A stretch of DNA of 64,000 nucleotides from Marinobacter sp. HL-58 (GTDB taxonomy: Bacteria > Pseudomonadota > Gammaproteobacteria > Pseudomonadales > Oleiphilaceae), in assembly GCF_001314605.1 (NCBI RefSeq), contig NZ_LIHP01000016.1, positions 434,001 to 498,000 of the forward strand, given 5' to 3'. This document shows positions 4,874 to 30,996 of the stretch, piece by piece (positions within the stretch are counted from its first letter, which is position 1; each line of letters starts with the position of its first letter). The notes beneath the pieces are model-generated. The model was not told the DNA's origin. It did not search any database and saw only the letters and a list, made by a program, of their open reading frames with translations. A program made the position numbers and the translations under genes.

Positions 4874-6274
4874 ATGACTCAGCTCGTCTGGTTCAGAAAT
4901 GATCTTCGTGCCGCCGATAACCCTGCCCTCACGGCCGCCTGCAAAAGCCGGCATCCGCTAAAGGCCTGTTTCATTGTTACGCCGGAACAGTGGCGAGAGC
5001 ACGACTGGTCACCGGCACGGGTCCGTTTCGTGCTCGACCACGCCAATGCCTTGTCGGAAGAACTGTCCGGGCTGGGCATTCCGCTGTCGTTCATCACGGC
5101 ATCGAGGTTCACGGACAGCGTTGAAAAACTGGAGGAGTTCTGCCGGCGCGAGAGTATCCGGCATGTACACTTCAACGAGGAATACGGAGTTAACGAAAGA
5201 CGCAGGGACAAGGCTGTCAAACAGGCGCTGGACGATACCGGCATTGCCGTCAACAAGTACCGGGACCAGACCGTGGCGCCTGTCGGCAGCATCCTGACCC
5301 GGCAGAACGAGCCCTACTCCGTGTTCACGCCCTTCTCGCGACGCTGGCGCAGCTGGATTGACGAGGCCCGCCCGACCCTGTTTCCTGTACCCGAACCGGT
5401 TGGCGATCCGGTGGAACCAGCCCGTTATGACGACTACCCGCCAGGCTTTGACAATCCGCCGCCGGGGCTGGTGGCGATCGGAGAAGACTCTGCCCATCAG
5501 CGCCTGGAGCAGTTCCTGGATAACCGCGTAGGCGACTACAAAAACCTTCGCGACCTGCCATCGGTGGACGGCACCAGCCTGTTGTCGCCCTACCTGGCCA
5601 ACGGCGTGCTGTCCGGCAGGCAGTGCCTGATCGCTGCCCGCCAGCATCAGGGCCTTGGTGGCAACCAGGAAGGCCTGGCCACCTGGACTAACGAAATCGC
5701 CTGGCGGGATTTCTACATCAATATTCTCTACCACTATCCGCGGGTGAGCATGCACCGGGCTTTCAAGCCGGAGACCGAGGCGCTGAAATGGAATACGCCC
5801 GGTGAAAAGTTTGAAGCCTGGAAAGCCGGCAATACCGGCATTCCCATTGTTGATGCAGCCATGCGCCAGCTTAACCAGACCGGCTGGATGCACAACCGCC
5901 TGCGCATGATTACGGCGATGTTCCTGACCAAGAATCTGTTTATTGACTGGCGCCTGGGTGAGGCATATTTCATGTCGAAACTGGTGGACGGATTCCTGGC
6001 CTCAAACAACGGCGGCTGGCAATGGAGTGCGTCCACCGGTACGGATGCGGCACCCTATTTTCGCGTGTTCAACCCAGCCACGCAGAGTGAGCGGTTCGAC
6101 CCTGACGGCGAATTCATCCGCAAATATGTTCCAGAACTGGCAAAACTGGATAACAAGCGAATTCATCAGCCTTGGACCTCTGGTGTCATTCCCGGCAGAT
6201 ACCCGAGACCGATTGTTGACCTTAAGGAAAGCAGAAAAGAAGCGATAGCAAAGTTTCAGGCACTGAAGAACTAG
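4874..6274 (+). CDS. phrB: Deoxyribodipyrimidine photolyase (class I)
   Basis: This 466-residue enzyme repairs UV-induced cyclobutane pyrimidine dimers using blue light. The N-terminal antenna domain begins 'MTQLVWFRNDLRAADNPAL'. The FAD-binding C-terminal domain shows 'TNEIAWRDFYINILYHYP', 'MRQLNQTGWMHNRLRM', 'DWRLGEAYFMSKLVDGFLASNN' and 'YFRVFNPATQSERFDPDG', all diagnostic for class I photolyases and cryptochromes. The CPD-repair set is intact, so repair rather than signalling is likely. ATG 4874 has AGGAA six bases upstream; the longer open frame is not needed. It is a single gene, convergent with moeB, and a structured repeat fills the gap. Confidence 0.95.
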   Translation: MTQLVWFRNDLRAADNPALTAACKSRHPLKACFIVTPEQWREHDWSPARVRFVLDHANALSEELSGLGIPLSFITASRFTDSVEKLEEFCRRESIRHVHFNEEYGVNERRRDKAVKQALDDTGIAVNKYRDQTVAPVGSILTRQNEPYSVFTPFSRRWRSWIDEARPTLFPVPEPVGDPVEPARYDDYPPGFDNPPPGLVAIGEDSAHQRLEQFLDNRVGDYKNLRDLPSVDGTSLLSPYLANGVLSGRQCLIAARQHQGLGGNQEGLATWTNEIAWRDFYINILYHYPRVSMHRAFKPETEALKWNTPGEKFEAWKAGNTGIPIVDAAMRQLNQTGWMHNRLRMITAMFLTKNLFIDWRLGEAYFMSKLVDGFLASNNGGWQWSASTGTDAAPYFRVFNPATQSERFDPDGEFIRKYVPELAKLDNKRIHQPWTSGVIPGRYPRPIVDLKESRKEAIAKFQALKN

Positions 6275-6280
6275 GGGAAT

Positions 6281-6379
6281 CGGCGGGCAGGCTCTGCCAA
6301 AACCGTGCGGAGCCATGGATGGCGGAGCCGAGCGTACAGGGAGGTATTCACAGCGTGTTTTGGCAGAGCCTGCCCGCCG
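6281..6379 (+). repeat. Structured repeat, copy A
   Basis: A perfect 23-base inverted repeat (6281-6303 with 6357-6379) encloses a 53-base core. The core holds two small hairpins: GCC/GGC around loop ATGGAT, then TAC/GTA around loop AGGGAG, followed by GTATTCACAGCGT. The same core, with unrelated but self-complementary outer arms, recurs at 29892-29995 and 30058-30160. It starts six bases after the photolyase stop, between convergent genes. There is no U-tract, so it is not a standard terminator. Confidence 0.85.
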
Positions 6380-6395
6380 GTTCCGACTCCCAAGC

Positions 6396-27357: not shown

Positions 27358-29844
27358 ATGTCGTGGCTTCGATTATTCTATGACCGGCTGATATTCCCAC
27401 GTCCTGTTGTCATATTGCTTCTGTTCGGTGTACTGCTCGTGATTGCCAGCCTGCGCCTGGATCAGTTCCGGCTGGACGCCTCCGCAGAATCCCTGGTTCT
27501 TGAAAACGACCGATCGCTGGAACAGTATCGCGAGGTCAACCGGCGCTTTACCACCTCTGACGACTTCCTGGTGGTCACCTTCACCCCCCGGGAGGAACTG
27601 TTCAGCGACGACGGTCTTGCACTGCTGAAATCCCTCCGGGATGAACTGGAAGCGCTGGACAACGTCAGCTCCACCAACAGCATACTCAACGTCCCCCTGC
27701 TCCACAGCCCGGACCTGACCCTGGACACCGTGGACTCGGAGATCAAGAACATCGACGAGGATGGCGTTGCCCCGGAAACCGCCCGCAAGGCCTTGCTCGA
27801 CAACCCCCTCTACCCCAACCTCCTGATCAGCGAGGATGCACGCACCACCGCCATCCAGGTCAACCTGCCGACCCCGGAACGCTATTTCAAACTGCTGCGC
27901 GAGCGCAACAGCCTGCGAGACAAGGTCGACAGCAACGAGGCCACCCCGGAGGATCGCCAGAAACTGGAAGCGGTAAGCCGTGAGTTTATCGAGTTCACCG
28001 AAGCCCAGGGGGAGGAGCGCGACCGCACCATTGATGAGGTTCGGGGTATTCTCGATAAGTACCGTGACGGCGCCGAGATCTACCTGGGTGGCGTGCCAAT
28101 GATCGTCGCCGACATGATTCGCTTTATCGAGAATGACCTGTCCACCTTCGGTATCGGGGTGCTGATTTTCCTGCTGCTGACACTGGCGGTCATCTTCCGC
28201 CAGTGGCGGTGGGTTCTGGTGCCATTGCTATGCTGCAGCTTTACCGTCTGGCTGGTGATCGGCTACCTGAGCTGGGCCCGCTGGCCGATCACGGTGATTT
28301 CCTCCAACTTCGTCTCACTGCTGCTGATCATGACCCTGTCGCTGACGATTCATCTGATCGTCCGCTACCGGGAATTCCAGCACGATAACCCGGAGGCCGC
28401 GCCCAGGGATATCCTTCGCAACACGCTACTGGCGATGATCAAGCCCTGTTTCTACATGGCCATCACCACCATCGTTGCCTTCGGTTCACTGACGTTCAGC
28501 GGTATTCGCCCGGTCATCGACTTTGGCTGGATGATGACCATAGGCCTCGCCGTGGCCTTCCTTATCACCTTCGTGATCTTCCCGGCGTTGCTGATGCTGT
28601 TGCCACCACCGGTGGACGAGCGGGTTCGCTCGGACCGGATACCGTTTACGGATATGTTTGCCCGGTTTACGGAGAACTATGGCAAGACCGTTGTTTTCGG
28701 CTCTGTCATCATCGCCGTACTCTGTGTAATCGGCCTCAACCGCCTGACCGTGGAAAACAGCTTTATTGATTACTTCAAATCCTCCACAGAAATCCACCAG
28801 GGCATGATCACCATCGACGACCGCCTGGGGGGCACCACCCCCCTGGACGTGGTGATCACGGACGACAAGCCCCCTGAAAGCGACGGCAGCGACGACCCGT
28901 TTGCCAGTGATTGTGATCCGTTTGTAGACGACTGCGAGGAAGCGGAGGAGTACCGGGACACCTGGTTCACCTACCAGAAGATGGAGCGGCTCAGTGAGGT
29001 TCACGATTACCTGGACAGCCTGCCGGAAACCGGCAAGGTCCAGTCCATCAGCACCACGCTCGACATACTGGCCCAGGTCAACGGTGGTGAGCCTCTGGAC
29101 GCACTGGAACTGGCCTTCGTGCCCTCCGCGGTGCCGGATGACCTGCAGGACATCCTGCTGACCCCCTACATCAGCGAGGAACATGACCAGGCCCGTTTCA
29201 GTATCCGCATACTGGAAACCTCGCCGGATCTGCGCCGCCAGGAGCTGCTGGACGGTATTCGCAATCATCTCACCGGAGAAATGGGCTTTGACGACGACCA
29301 GGTGCAGCTCACGGGCATGACGGTGATGTACAACAATATGCTGCAGAGCCTGTTCGATTCCCAGATCAAGACCCTGGGCGTGGTGTTCCTGGCCATCATG
29401 ATCATGTTCCTGATTCTGTTCCGTTCCATCAAGCTGGCGCTGATCGGGATGGCGCCCAACCTGATTGCGGCAGGCTCGGTGCTGGGCCTGATGGGCTGGC
29501 TGGGCATTCCGCTGGATATGATGACGATTACGGTGGCGGCGATTACGGTGGGGATTGCGGTGGACGATACCATTCACTATATCCACCGTTTCAAAACGGA
29601 ATTCGAGAAGGACGGTGACTACATCGCCACCATGCACCGCTGCCACCGCAGCATCGGGCAGGCGATGTTCTTTACCTCGCTGACGATCATTACCGGGTTT
29701 TCCATTCTGGTGCTGTCGAACTTTATCCCGACCATCTACTTCGGGTTGTTCACCGGCTTCGCCATGTTCATGGCCCTGATTGGTGCGCTTACCCTGTTGC
29801 CACGGCTTATCGTGCTCGTTAAACCGTTTGGTGTTAAGGGCTAG
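27358..29844 (+). CDS. MMPL/RND-family exporter
   Basis: This 828-residue membrane protein has the duplicated layout of MMPL/RND exporters: one helix, a large periplasmic domain (about 35-250), five or six helices ('GIGVLIFLLLTLAVIFRQWR' onwards), then the same again. The second half has 'ITVAAITVGIAVDDTIHYIHRFKTE', with the paired Asp residues used for proton coupling. A short acidic insert at about 502-520 repeats 'DPFxxDC'. Related proteins export lipids or hopanoids; the substrate here is unknown. ATG 27358 is preferred to the GTG four codons earlier, which abuts its only ribosome-site candidate. Confidence 0.88.
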   Translation: MSWLRLFYDRLIFPRPVVILLLFGVLLVIASLRLDQFRLDASAESLVLENDRSLEQYREVNRRFTTSDDFLVVTFTPREELFSDDGLALLKSLRDELEALDNVSSTNSILNVPLLHSPDLTLDTVDSEIKNIDEDGVAPETARKALLDNPLYPNLLISEDARTTAIQVNLPTPERYFKLLRERNSLRDKVDSNEATPEDRQKLEAVSREFIEFTEAQGEERDRTIDEVRGILDKYRDGAEIYLGGVPMIVADMIRFIENDLSTFGIGVLIFLLLTLAVIFRQWRWVLVPLLCCSFTVWLVIGYLSWARWPITVISSNFVSLLLIMTLSLTIHLIVRYREFQHDNPEAAPRDILRNTLLAMIKPCFYMAITTIVAFGSLTFSGIRPVIDFGWMMTIGLAVAFLITFVIFPALLMLLPPPVDERVRSDRIPFTDMFARFTENYGKTVVFGSVIIAVLCVIGLNRLTVENSFIDYFKSSTEIHQGMITIDDRLGGTTPLDVVITDDKPPESDGSDDPFASDCDPFVDDCEEAEEYRDTWFTYQKMERLSEVHDYLDSLPETGKVQSISTTLDILAQVNGGEPLDALELAFVPSAVPDDLQDILLTPYISEEHDQARFSIRILETSPDLRRQELLDGIRNHLTGEMGFDDDQVQLTGMTVMYNNMLQSLFDSQIKTLGVVFLAIMIMFLILFRSIKLALIGMAPNLIAAGSVLGLMGWLGIPLDMMTITVAAITVGIAVDDTIHYIHRFKTEFEKDGDYIATMHRCHRSIGQAMFFTSLTIITGFSILVLSNFIPTIYFGLFTGFAMFMALIGALTLLPRLIVLVKPFGVKG

Positions 29845-29891
29845 GTTTGGAGTTGCCCTCCCCACCCAGCCTGCAAGTTAAGGTGGTAGTC

Positions 29892-29995
29892 GCACCGGCG
29901 CCCTTCCTTCCCGGAAACGCTACAAGCACATCCCTGTGCGCTTGACTTCGGCCGTCCCTGGCCGAAGACATTCCGGGAAGGAAGGGCGCCGGCGC
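29892..29995 (-). repeat. Structured repeat, copy C (inverted)
   Basis: Arms 29892-29916 and 29971-29995 are complementary over 25 bases with one mismatch. Read on the minus strand, the core has two hairpins: CTTCGGCC/GGCCGAAG around AGGGAC, and GCAC/GTGC around AGGGAT, followed by GTAGCGTTT. This is the layout of copies A and B with different stem sequences. It lies about 60 bases from copy B in opposite orientation, in the convergent gap after the MMPL gene. Confidence 0.85.
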
Positions 29996-30057
29996 TCCTG
30001 CATCTTTCGTGATATCGCCTTTGAAACGCCATGGCGCTTCCACGGAGTTTGAACGAA

Positions 30058-30160
30058 GCGGCGGGGCAAGCGTTCAGAAACCGTGGAGCGCCAGGGATGG
30101 CGCGACCGAGCCCTACAGGGACGTATTCACGGGCGTGTTTCTGAACGCTTGCCCCGCCGC
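30058..30160 (+). repeat. Structured repeat, copy B
   Basis: A perfect 24-base inverted repeat (30058-30081 with 30137-30160) encloses hairpins GCGCC/GGCGC around loop AGGGAT and TAC/GTA around loop AGGGAC, then GTATTCACGGGCGT. A further GGAGT/ACTCC pairing (30044-30048, 30166-30170) can extend the stem. AAACCGTG before hairpin 1 and GTATTCAC after hairpin 2 are shared with copy A. Confidence 0.85.
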
Positions 30161-30210
30161 TGACGACTCCTAGCTATCAGGCTTACAAACCAGCAGGCTA
30201 CAGGCAATAA

Positions 30211-30246
30211 AAAAACCGCCAAAGCCACAGGCCAAGGCGGTTTTCG
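30211..30246 (-). terminator. Bidirectional terminator between MMPL gene and Spy-like gene
   Basis: AAAACCGCC (to 30220) pairs with GGCGGTTTT (30236-30244), with a 15-base loop. On the minus strand it is followed by a run of seven Ts after the stem, fitting termination of the Gln-rich gene; the plus strand also has TTTT. Confidence 0.8.
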
Positions 30247-30291
30247 TAAAACCCCGGATTCGATCCGGGGGATAGTCAGTACAGCAGTCGC

Positions 30292-30777
30292 TTACTGCAT
30301 CTGCTGCTGTTGCTGCGGTTGCTGCTGCATCTGCTGTTGCTGCATCTGCTGCTGTTGCTGCTGCATTTCTTCCATACGCTTGTTCAGCTCATCGCGCTGC
30401 TCTTCAGTGAACACGGCATCTACCCTGGCCTGCATCAGAGTAGACAGTGCAGTCATCTCGCCCGTTACTTCACCCAGCTTCTCGGCGTTGTCGCGAATAG
30501 TGCCTTCGTCATAGTCCGGCTTGATCTCACCCTGGATCTGCTGCTGCAACTGCTGTGCTTCGCCCTGAAGCTCCTCAATCTCAGTCTGCATTTCCTCGAT
30601 GATGCCGCGAATTTCCTTTTGCTGATCATCGCTCAGACCAACCATCTCTGCCAGCTGATCGACCTGGTCCGGTTGCCCTCCGGCCTGGCCCGCCTGGCCA
30701 GACTGCTGCTGCGCCATAGCGGTAGAAGACAGCCCAAGTGCAATCAGGGCGATTCCGAACAGTTTCACAAGCTTCAT
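30292..30777 (-). CDS. Gln-rich Spy/CpxP-like periplasmic protein
   Basis: This 161-residue protein has a clear signal peptide, 'LFGIALIALGLSSTAMAQQ', cleaved after AMA. The mature part is all-helical with two LTxxQ-like motifs, 'LSDDQQKEI' and 'FTEEQRDEL', which mark the Spy/CpxP periplasmic chaperone and stress-sensor fold. The C-terminal 27 residues are almost only Gln and Met. ATG 30777 has GGAG seven bases upstream. It has its own terminator. A role in envelope stress or metal binding is suggested by the fold and Met content, but no Cpx or metal genes adjoin. Confidence 0.75.
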   Translation of the reverse strand: MKLVKLFGIALIALGLSSTAMAQQQSGQAGQAGGQPDQVDQLAEMVGLSDDQQKEIRGIIEEMQTEIEELQGEAQQLQQQIQGEIKPDYDEGTIRDNAEKLGEVTGEMTALSTLMQARVDAVFTEEQRDELNKRMEEMQQQQQQMQQQQMQQQPQQQQQMQ

Positions 30778-30996
30778 AGATATCTCCAATAATCGTTTGA
30801 TTAATTCACTTCGTGTTTCCAAGCCCTACACCCTAAAACAAAACAATGAAGAATTTCACCCCGAACCCCCTTCTTTTTGTACATACTTCACATCGTCATT
30901 GCCGAAGCTCCCGCCACAGGCGGCTTCAGAGAAATGTGAAAATTTGGTCATTCACGTCCATAATGGCGCCATTCAGCCATTTCCGGAGTATCACAC

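Follow-up and report, generated by a model that had tools for sequence, protein, structure and literature searches.

A very abundant, arm-variable inverted repeat of Marinobacter shares the core of YPAL/RU-2 and is a possible CsrA ligand

YPAL, also known as RU-2, is an enterobacterial repeat (Yersinia; Pectobacterium, or Erwinia) that is multi-copy, intergenic and palindromic. In the part of its description drawn on here (PMC2229807), YPAL is a mobile element with both occupied and vacant sites; its target duplications vary in length (3-26 bp), it inserts at or close to dyad symmetry, and it is suggested to affect the stability of upstream transcripts. RU-2 is 168 nt (or 130 bp) long with one conserved sequence; in the Y. 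pestis RU-2 sequence given in one table of PMC2759123 (Table 1b), a hairpin with an AAGGAT loop is followed by a GAGC linker and then by TACATGGATGTATTTACGGCG. Ysr224 (Rfam RF02770) is temperature-responsive and expressed from several copies, according to extracts of two reports (PMC9029176, PMC12112432). TwoAYGGAY RNA (RF01731, of clan CL00106, common to PrrB_RsmZ) has an outer stem and two AYGGAY hairpins, and CsrA binding was independently proposed for it in the section of PMC4333381 used here. REP/REPIN sequences with RAYT proteins are likewise palindromic and intergenic, and form inverted pairs in one fixed arrangement. Finally, CsrB/RsmZ-type CsrA sponge RNAs present several ANGGAN loops in one RNA, with many GGAs at one locus, whereas the element described below spreads its GGAs, two in each, over 143 or more copies.

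The whole stretch of DNA analysed, called the window (64,000 nt), holds three copies of this element. Each has arms of 25-28 bp, 96-100% complementary, around a core of 53-55 nt with two ANGGAN-loop hairpins. A covariance model built from 48 copies of the genome (R1) recovers all three, and over the whole window it gave nothing at E < 0.05 besides them and their opposite-strand hits. The copies and their parts are as follows.

6276..6384, + strand (core on +): copy 1, whole element; R1 115.2 bits, E 3.5e-23; inverted repeat I1
6276..6303, + strand: copy 1 left arm, 28 nt, 96% complementary to 6357-6384
6312..6323, + strand: copy 1 hairpin 1, GCC-ATGGAT-GGC, from sequence
6335..6346, + strand: copy 1 hairpin 2, TAC-AGGGAG-GTA, from sequence; absent from the minimum-free-energy fold of the isolated core
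6357..6384, + strand: copy 1 right arm, partner of 6276-6303
29889..29998, - strand (core on -): copy 2, whole element; R1 78.2 bits, E 4.3e-15
29971..29995, - strand: copy 2 left arm in the sense of the core, 25 nt, 96% complementary to 29892-29916
29946..29967, - strand: copy 2 hairpin 1, CTTCGGCC-AGGGAC-GGCCGAAG, from sequence; core fold z -4.05
29923..29944, - strand: copy 2 hairpin 2, loop AGGGAT at 29930-29935, from sequence and predicted fold
29892..29916, - strand: copy 2 right arm in the sense of the core, partner of 29971-29995
30054..30164, + strand (core on +): copy 3, whole element; R1 98.0 bits, E 2e-19
30057..30081, + strand: copy 3 left arm, 25 nt, 100% complementary to 30137-30161
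30088..30103, + strand: copy 3 hairpin 1, GCGCC-AGGGAT-GGCGC, from sequence
30114..30125, + strand: copy 3 hairpin 2, TAC-AGGGAC-GTA, from sequence; folded alone, the core instead pairs CCC with GGG in its minimum-free-energy structure
30137..30161, + strand: copy 3 right arm, partner of 30057-30081

Folding z-scores of the three copies, on both strands, range from -8.5 to -10.3. A preliminary description of the window had proposed a repeat family with a two-hairpin core and six-base loops (ATGGAT once, AGGGAT, AGGGAC or AGGGAG otherwise), and all three copies bear this out. It had also noted the lack of T-runs, and indeed no T-run of the kind expected of an intrinsic terminator follows the stem in the sequence of the three copies; a terminator scan of 29800-30300 flagged nothing. 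All three sit between convergent open reading frames, the stop codon of a + strand gene (6272-6274) lying one base before copy 1, and copies 2 and 3 form a pair in minus-then-plus order. Between copy 3 and the convergent gene 30292-30822, a hairpin (CCGCC..GGCGG, 30209-30244) was seen with an A-run before it and a T-run after it; the terminator scan did not flag it. Given this hairpin, transcripts reaching copies 2 and 3 may come mainly from the left gene.

The covariance search that the preliminary description had advised extended the family well beyond the window. In blast comparisons of named contigs with the 4.24 Mb genome, M. denitrificans (88.9% over 2 kb) and M. iranensis (83% over 5.5 kb) point to Marinobacter as its genus. 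Within this genome, R1 detected at least 143 copies with E-values up to 1e-3 and scores down to 76.5 bits; the figure is a lower bound, at most 150 candidates having been scored, and the list is without window copy 2. A 17-letter pattern from the second hairpin and the tail (TACANGGANGTATTNAC) had 72 exact matches in the whole genome, and its reversed control 5 matches at up to 2 mismatches. A model-free scan of 400 kb of the genome for inverted repeats (16-bp arms with 1 mismatch allowed, 44-75 nt spacers) found 15, of which 11 were members of the family with two GGA loops and 4 belonged to two other repeats; on two block-shuffled controls the same scan found none. Separately, a second long inverted-repeat family with variable arms was noticed at G000:C1 220373-220460, 387697-387786 and 391725-391819, its arms ending in a GGGGGTAT..TTT-type stretch around a common core near GTGTCTGAGCGAAGCGAGTTCTTTTTCC; it is also present in genomes G016 and G007. 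A further repeat, GTAGGTCGGATTAG / CTAATCCGACCTAC, often in inverted pairs, lies beside or between element pairs (G000:C1 335589-335676; pair spacers in L040, L421, L430, L432 and L060), and its 6-mers head the left-flank counts.

Of the 143 copies, 140 were readable, three being too close to a locus end. The unit measures about 110 nt, with arms mostly of 25-30 bp and a core of 52-55 nt in most copies. Two ANGGA motifs are present in 139 of the 140 copies, 20-22 nt apart from GGA to GGA in 133 of 139, and by complementarity both hexaloops are closed by at least three Watson-Crick pairs in 131 of 140, in a set gathered by a pattern and a model that already contain loop letters. The hairpin stems, on the other hand, come in several types: GCC/GGC with flanking purines, CAAAAAC/GTTTTTG, GCGCC/GGCGC and CGTAAAAAAC/GTTTTTTACG for hairpin 1, and TAC/GTA, CAC/GTG and CCC/GGG for hairpin 2. 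Single pairs change accordingly (hairpin 1 pair 2: CG 101, AT 28, GC 6, TA 3; hairpin 2 pair 2: AT 114, CG 22; pair 3: TA 80, CG 47). Within the loops, the variable letters are the two N of ANGGAN, and at loop position 2 G is nearly as frequent as T.

Predicted folds agree with this anatomy in part. Minimum-free-energy folds of isolated cores contain the hairpin-2 hexaloop in three of five sequences (copy 2 and core types B and D) and lack it in copies 1 and 3. Cores did not fold clearly better than shuffles for copy 1 (z +0.88), copy 3 (-1.31) and type B (-0.69), and RNAalifold on the 48 copies preferred a different pairing at hairpin 2. In this 48-copy set hairpin 2 is invariant because the collecting pattern fixed most of it. 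The putative hexaloop form of hairpin 2 is drawn from the wider set, where its pairs vary but remain complementary, with the folds lending it support in part.

The preliminary description could name no described family. This is right insofar as no Rfam gathering score was reached at the window copies or at the element copies of 14 further genome loci; however, YPAL/RU-2 and Ysr224 hold the same core. R1 finds copies in Yersinia similis, two Pectobacterium and Samsonia (E 9e-11 to 7e-13), and in Yersinia, Pectobacterium and Samsonia these copies are also hit by Ysr224, which lies on the other strand from R1. The Ysr224 model scores 129.9, 91.3, 84.7 and 73.3 bits on the enterobacterial copies, above its gathering score of 70, and at best 32.5 bits, far below it, in 14 loci of the host genome. 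Unlike RU-2 with its one sequence, the element has arms that vary by copy. TwoAYGGAY resembles it further in an AAG-type linker and a GCGU-type tail, as seen in the alignment of the host element, but its model has longer hairpins, host loops have G nearly as often as T where it has Y, and RF01731 reached at best 29.3 bits in the 14 host loci against a gathering score of 43, unrelated families scoring equally high below their thresholds in the same search. We regard the element as a new branch of the YPAL/RU-2 kind, highly abundant and variable in its arms, and there is a testable case for the shared core as a CsrA site.

The element was found in all 41 genomes of the genus that were searched, in 3 to at least 94 copies. 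At class level, with at most 14 candidates scored per genome, matches were obtained in 50 of 274 genomes (45 of 222 genera). The guess that similar cores occur in other marine gammaproteobacteria was right. Named genomes carrying the core pattern, among the matches listed (80 of at least 119 stretches), belong to Marinobacter, Pseudomonas, Halopseudomonas, Stutzerimonas, Stenotrophomonas, Shewanella, Oceanisphaera, Microbulbifer, Pectobacterium, Samsonia and Yersinia. The Shewanella, Oceanisphaera and Zobellella copies (L248, L249, L257, L258, L285, L287) have short ungapped arms of 4-14 bp, and their core apparently lies within a differently built repeat.

The outer arms differ between copies yet stay complementary, as first noted on three copies. 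Over 48 copies, none of the 27 arm pairs is without a two-sided change in at least one copy. Pairing holds in 96.2% of arm cells, and the structure covariation score is 0.794, against 0.200 when shuffled and at most 0.186 when slid. The covariation is real, but taking it directly as an indication of selection on structure was too quick, because template switching (quasipalindrome correction) can also keep long near-perfect palindromes perfect. Between orthologous copies, arms change about four times faster than cores (0.218 versus 0.057 per site, 63 pairs with at most 10 arm differences). For pairs with at most 8 arm differences and equal core length, 137 arm cells had changed on both sides to another Watson-Crick pair, 2 on both sides otherwise and 21 on one side only (G.U 13, A.C 1, other 7); these comparisons are pairwise, and pairs that share genomes are not independent. 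At the thiG locus (L389-L392), all four arm differences read by eye are matched on the other arm. The core also flips between orthologues of the copy-1 locus (10 in plus and 7 in minus orientation among the 17 of 30 loci that carry the element), as fold-back replication or recombination between arms would give; no flips were seen at thiG (5 loci) or at the first phoU element (4 loci). It could well be, although we lean somewhat the other way, that the arm covariation is largely mutational, changes being copied from one arm to the other by template switching with no need for RNA selection. The rarity of one-sided changes, with few G.U intermediates, suggests that such correction at least contributes.

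A strand-blind process such as template switching should leave G.U and A.C mismatches in equal numbers on the core strand. This is not what is observed: with G.U and A.C scored symmetrically when arms were placed, the 140 copies hold 40 G.U, 3 A.C and 27 other mismatches besides 3010 Watson-Crick cells (p 3e-9), and the one-sided orthologue changes are skewed in the same direction. In copies antisense to both neighbours, within a set of 72 copies, the count is 9 G.U versus 1 A.C over 22 pairs. It therefore looks as if the core strand is under some selection, whether in RNA or in single-stranded DNA; alternatively, the excess may come from a mutation process that is linked to the element and favours one strand. 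The excess of G.U over A.C is a better sign of one-strand selection than covariation is, and template switching may explain the perfection of the arms, not the strand asymmetry.

Arms and cores are decoupled between copies. In 292 copy pairs with at most 3 core differences, arms differ at a mean of 12.2 of 26 positions, compared with 14.4 for all pairs. In 49 orthologue pairs with equally close cores, 31 of them from the copy-1 locus and all taken without filtering by arm difference, the mean is 5.9 of 26 and the maximum 12. Either a new copy gets its arms where it lands, or existing copies swap cores. Near-identical cores with very different arms would fit a purely selfish, YPAL- or MITE-like miniature element, whose core and hairpins are a signal for a mobilising enzyme on folded single-stranded DNA and which has no role for the host. 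So would the core shared with YPAL/RU-2 (sequence in PMC2759123), which the cited portion of PMC2229807 describes as mobile, the spread of copy numbers within one genus and the patchy occurrence in the class. We find a purely selfish element doubtful, since a mobility signal alone leaves unexplained why the variable loop letters are those that CsrA ignores (see below). With one 65-base query, no match was obtained in phages or in E. coli, and a single one in plasmids (Marinobacter adhaerens HP15). In the one 400 kb stretch compared, the differences readable by eye look like deletions that removed the element and not like gains. Some such losses are clear: at 463.9-464.2 kb, all that three relatives retain is remnants, mainly of one arm, one of the three also with the end of the core.

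Mobilisation by a RAYT (Y1) transposase, a link that the preliminary description had proposed looking for, is unsupported. Y1_Tnp presence and copy number, counted up to 94 per genome, were uncorrelated over the 41 genus genomes (Spearman -0.02); a Y1 protein is present in 24 of them, and 13 of the 17 genomes without one still carry at least 45 copies. REPs are also smaller, 20-40 bp in the abstract consulted against units of about 110 nt here.

Copies less than 400 bp apart always occur in minus-then-plus order: 20 of 20 pairs in the genome itself and 10 of 10 in the single-contig relative G035, some of the latter orthologous to the former. Window copies 2 and 3 add one more pair of this kind. 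Such an order is what a composite mobile unit would show, and it too is compatible with a selfish element. Gene contexts of the 17 of the 20 own-genome pairs looked at are mixed (++ 6, -- 5, +- 4, -+ 2), and gene orientation does not account for the rule. In G035, with the origin set at dnaA and the terminus assumed opposite, copies showed no replication-strand bias (42 leading, 50 lagging, p 0.47).

Hairpins may be landing sites, as two loci hint. After phoU, the element of one relative (G007) is enclosed by a stem that in another (G036, L361) forms a plain 13-bp hairpin. After thiG, the place that the element occupies in the host and four close relatives is taken by a short hairpin in at least 7 of 30 loci (L395, L398, L399, L400, L401, L405, L410); both comparisons were made by eye and offered no clean empty site. 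A central deletion fits the phoU case (L361) equally. Insertion into pre-existing long palindromes was considered and rejected: with 20-bp arms, at most 2 mismatches and spacers of up to 20 nt, such palindromes are nearly absent (1, 2, 2 and 0 in four 400 kb stretches), so that no reservoir of long-palindrome targets exists; short hairpins may have served as targets. We infer that the element was probably mobile in the genus in the past. Two irregularities were also noted among intergenic sites. At L114 (G037), downstream of a ThiF/MoeB-like gene, extra hairpin-like sequence seems, by eye, to lie between the second loop and the right arm, and GGGGTCAGATGAAAGCTTTCATCTGACCCC-like or GGGGACAGACTTGAAGTCTGTCCCC-like palindromes, often repeated, occupy the same intergenic sites at L372, L373, L396 and L397, and at L121 and L125.

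In order to describe the genomic context, 72 copies were examined with a simple home-made gene caller, which makes the contexts approximate. None lies inside a called gene. One has no left gene; the remaining 71 lie in ++ (22), -- (19), convergent (18) and divergent, -+ (12) gaps. Convergent gaps are enriched (18 of 71 copies versus 16 of 159 gaps of at least 80 nt in 400 kb, Fisher p 0.004), yet they are a minority, and the preliminary statement that all copies lie in them is true of the window and not of the genome. In 49 of the 72 copies, a neighbour's stop codon, pointing at the copy, is within 100 nt of an arm. Such proximity would suit a structural role at 3' ends, the long hairpin stabilising or terminating transcripts and CsrA having no part in it, as would the ordinary short hairpin found at the same place in some phoU and thiG relatives and the proposal, in the part of PMC2229807 used, that YPAL influences the stability of upstream transcripts. 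This explanation is improbable in our view: the three window copies have no T-run, 12 of 71 copies lie between divergent genes, and a stem would serve with any loop, yet both ANGGAN tips are kept.

What the tips may be for is suggested by a feature that the preliminary description had not pointed out: the two ANGGAN hexaloops of each core match the form of CsrA (RsmA) targets. In the part of PMC7652899 used here, the CsrA SELEX consensus is RUACARGGAUGU with ACA and GGA invariant, loops are mostly of six bases on at most 4 pairs, and CsrA bridges two sites 10-63 nt apart with an optimum above 18 nt. The spacing of 20-22 nt in the element falls within this bridging range, and its paired short-stemmed loops fit a CsrA site of high affinity that one dimer could bridge. 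The letters ACANGGANGU, built on the best-conserved part of the consensus, are present in 121 of 140 cores, and the complete consensus in 9 of 140. The letters that are free in CsrA recognition are the letters that are free in the loops of the element, with the stems compensating. The host has csrA (PF02599 at G000:C2:13426-13581, E 7e-26).

Loops, spacing, free letters and compensating stems together lead us to take any copy that is transcribed for a bivalent ligand of CsrA on a rigid stalk. The copies would be old, dispersed, formerly mobile repeats, the Marinobacter branch of a group that includes enterobacterial YPAL/RU-2. In a transcript of the core strand, which we suppose is made in the host, the core would fold into two short ANGGAN hexaloop hairpins 20-22 nt apart, presented as a pair at the tip of a 25-30 bp stem, and one CsrA dimer could clamp both loops. 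The stem would keep the tip folded and exposed, its sequence being free and its pairing constrained. Each transcribed copy might then act as a CsrA decoy, mark the untranslated RNA in which it lies for CsrA, or do both, and in this way touch the CsrA regulon. The strand asymmetry of the arm mismatches, the CsrA binding proposed for TwoAYGGAY and the reported expression of Ysr224 also speak for this reading. Our confidence in the bivalent CsrA site is tentative, the arguments for and against it being close to balance.

Several results speak against it. The core shows no preference for the sense of its neighbours: in co-directional gaps, 19 copies are antisense to both genes and 22 are sense. 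This would also fit a selfish element. No excess of sigma70-like promoters was found 5' of the element with a sigma70 matrix (mean best score 4.16, versus 4.22 on the 3' side). The folds are mixed, the core flips at the copy-1 locus, and the Ysr224 model represents the other strand, not the one with the GGA loops. Across genomes, csrA is not significantly commoner with the element (46 of 50 element-bearing genomes versus 189 of 224 genomes, p 0.19), and one element-bearing genome (G236, 98% complete) is missing from the 235 in which csrA was matched. No paper in the collection searched contains both words, CsrA and YPAL, and among the papers listed by a broader search (12 of 134) none connects the two in its title or the opening of its abstract.

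A bolder version of the CsrA reading is that one mobile lineage (YPAL/RU-2, Ysr224 and perhaps TwoAYGGAY) spread a bivalent CsrA site, and that its copies form a distributed CsrA sponge; we think this rather unlikely on present grounds. If it were true, a high-copy genome would supply some 280 CsrA sites, and copy number together with local transcription would set free CsrA, in place of one CsrB-type RNA. If the CsrA reading is right, the copy numbers of sister species, 3 to at least 94, are a natural experiment on CsrA titration. Abundant 'junk' palindromes would be tied to one of the best-studied global regulators, and a repeat long known from enterobacteria would join one or more Rfam families in a single group. 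Even without CsrA, the element offers a clean system in which selection at the RNA level can be told apart from correction of long palindromes by template switching, and its strict minus-plus pair rule is a mechanistic clue.
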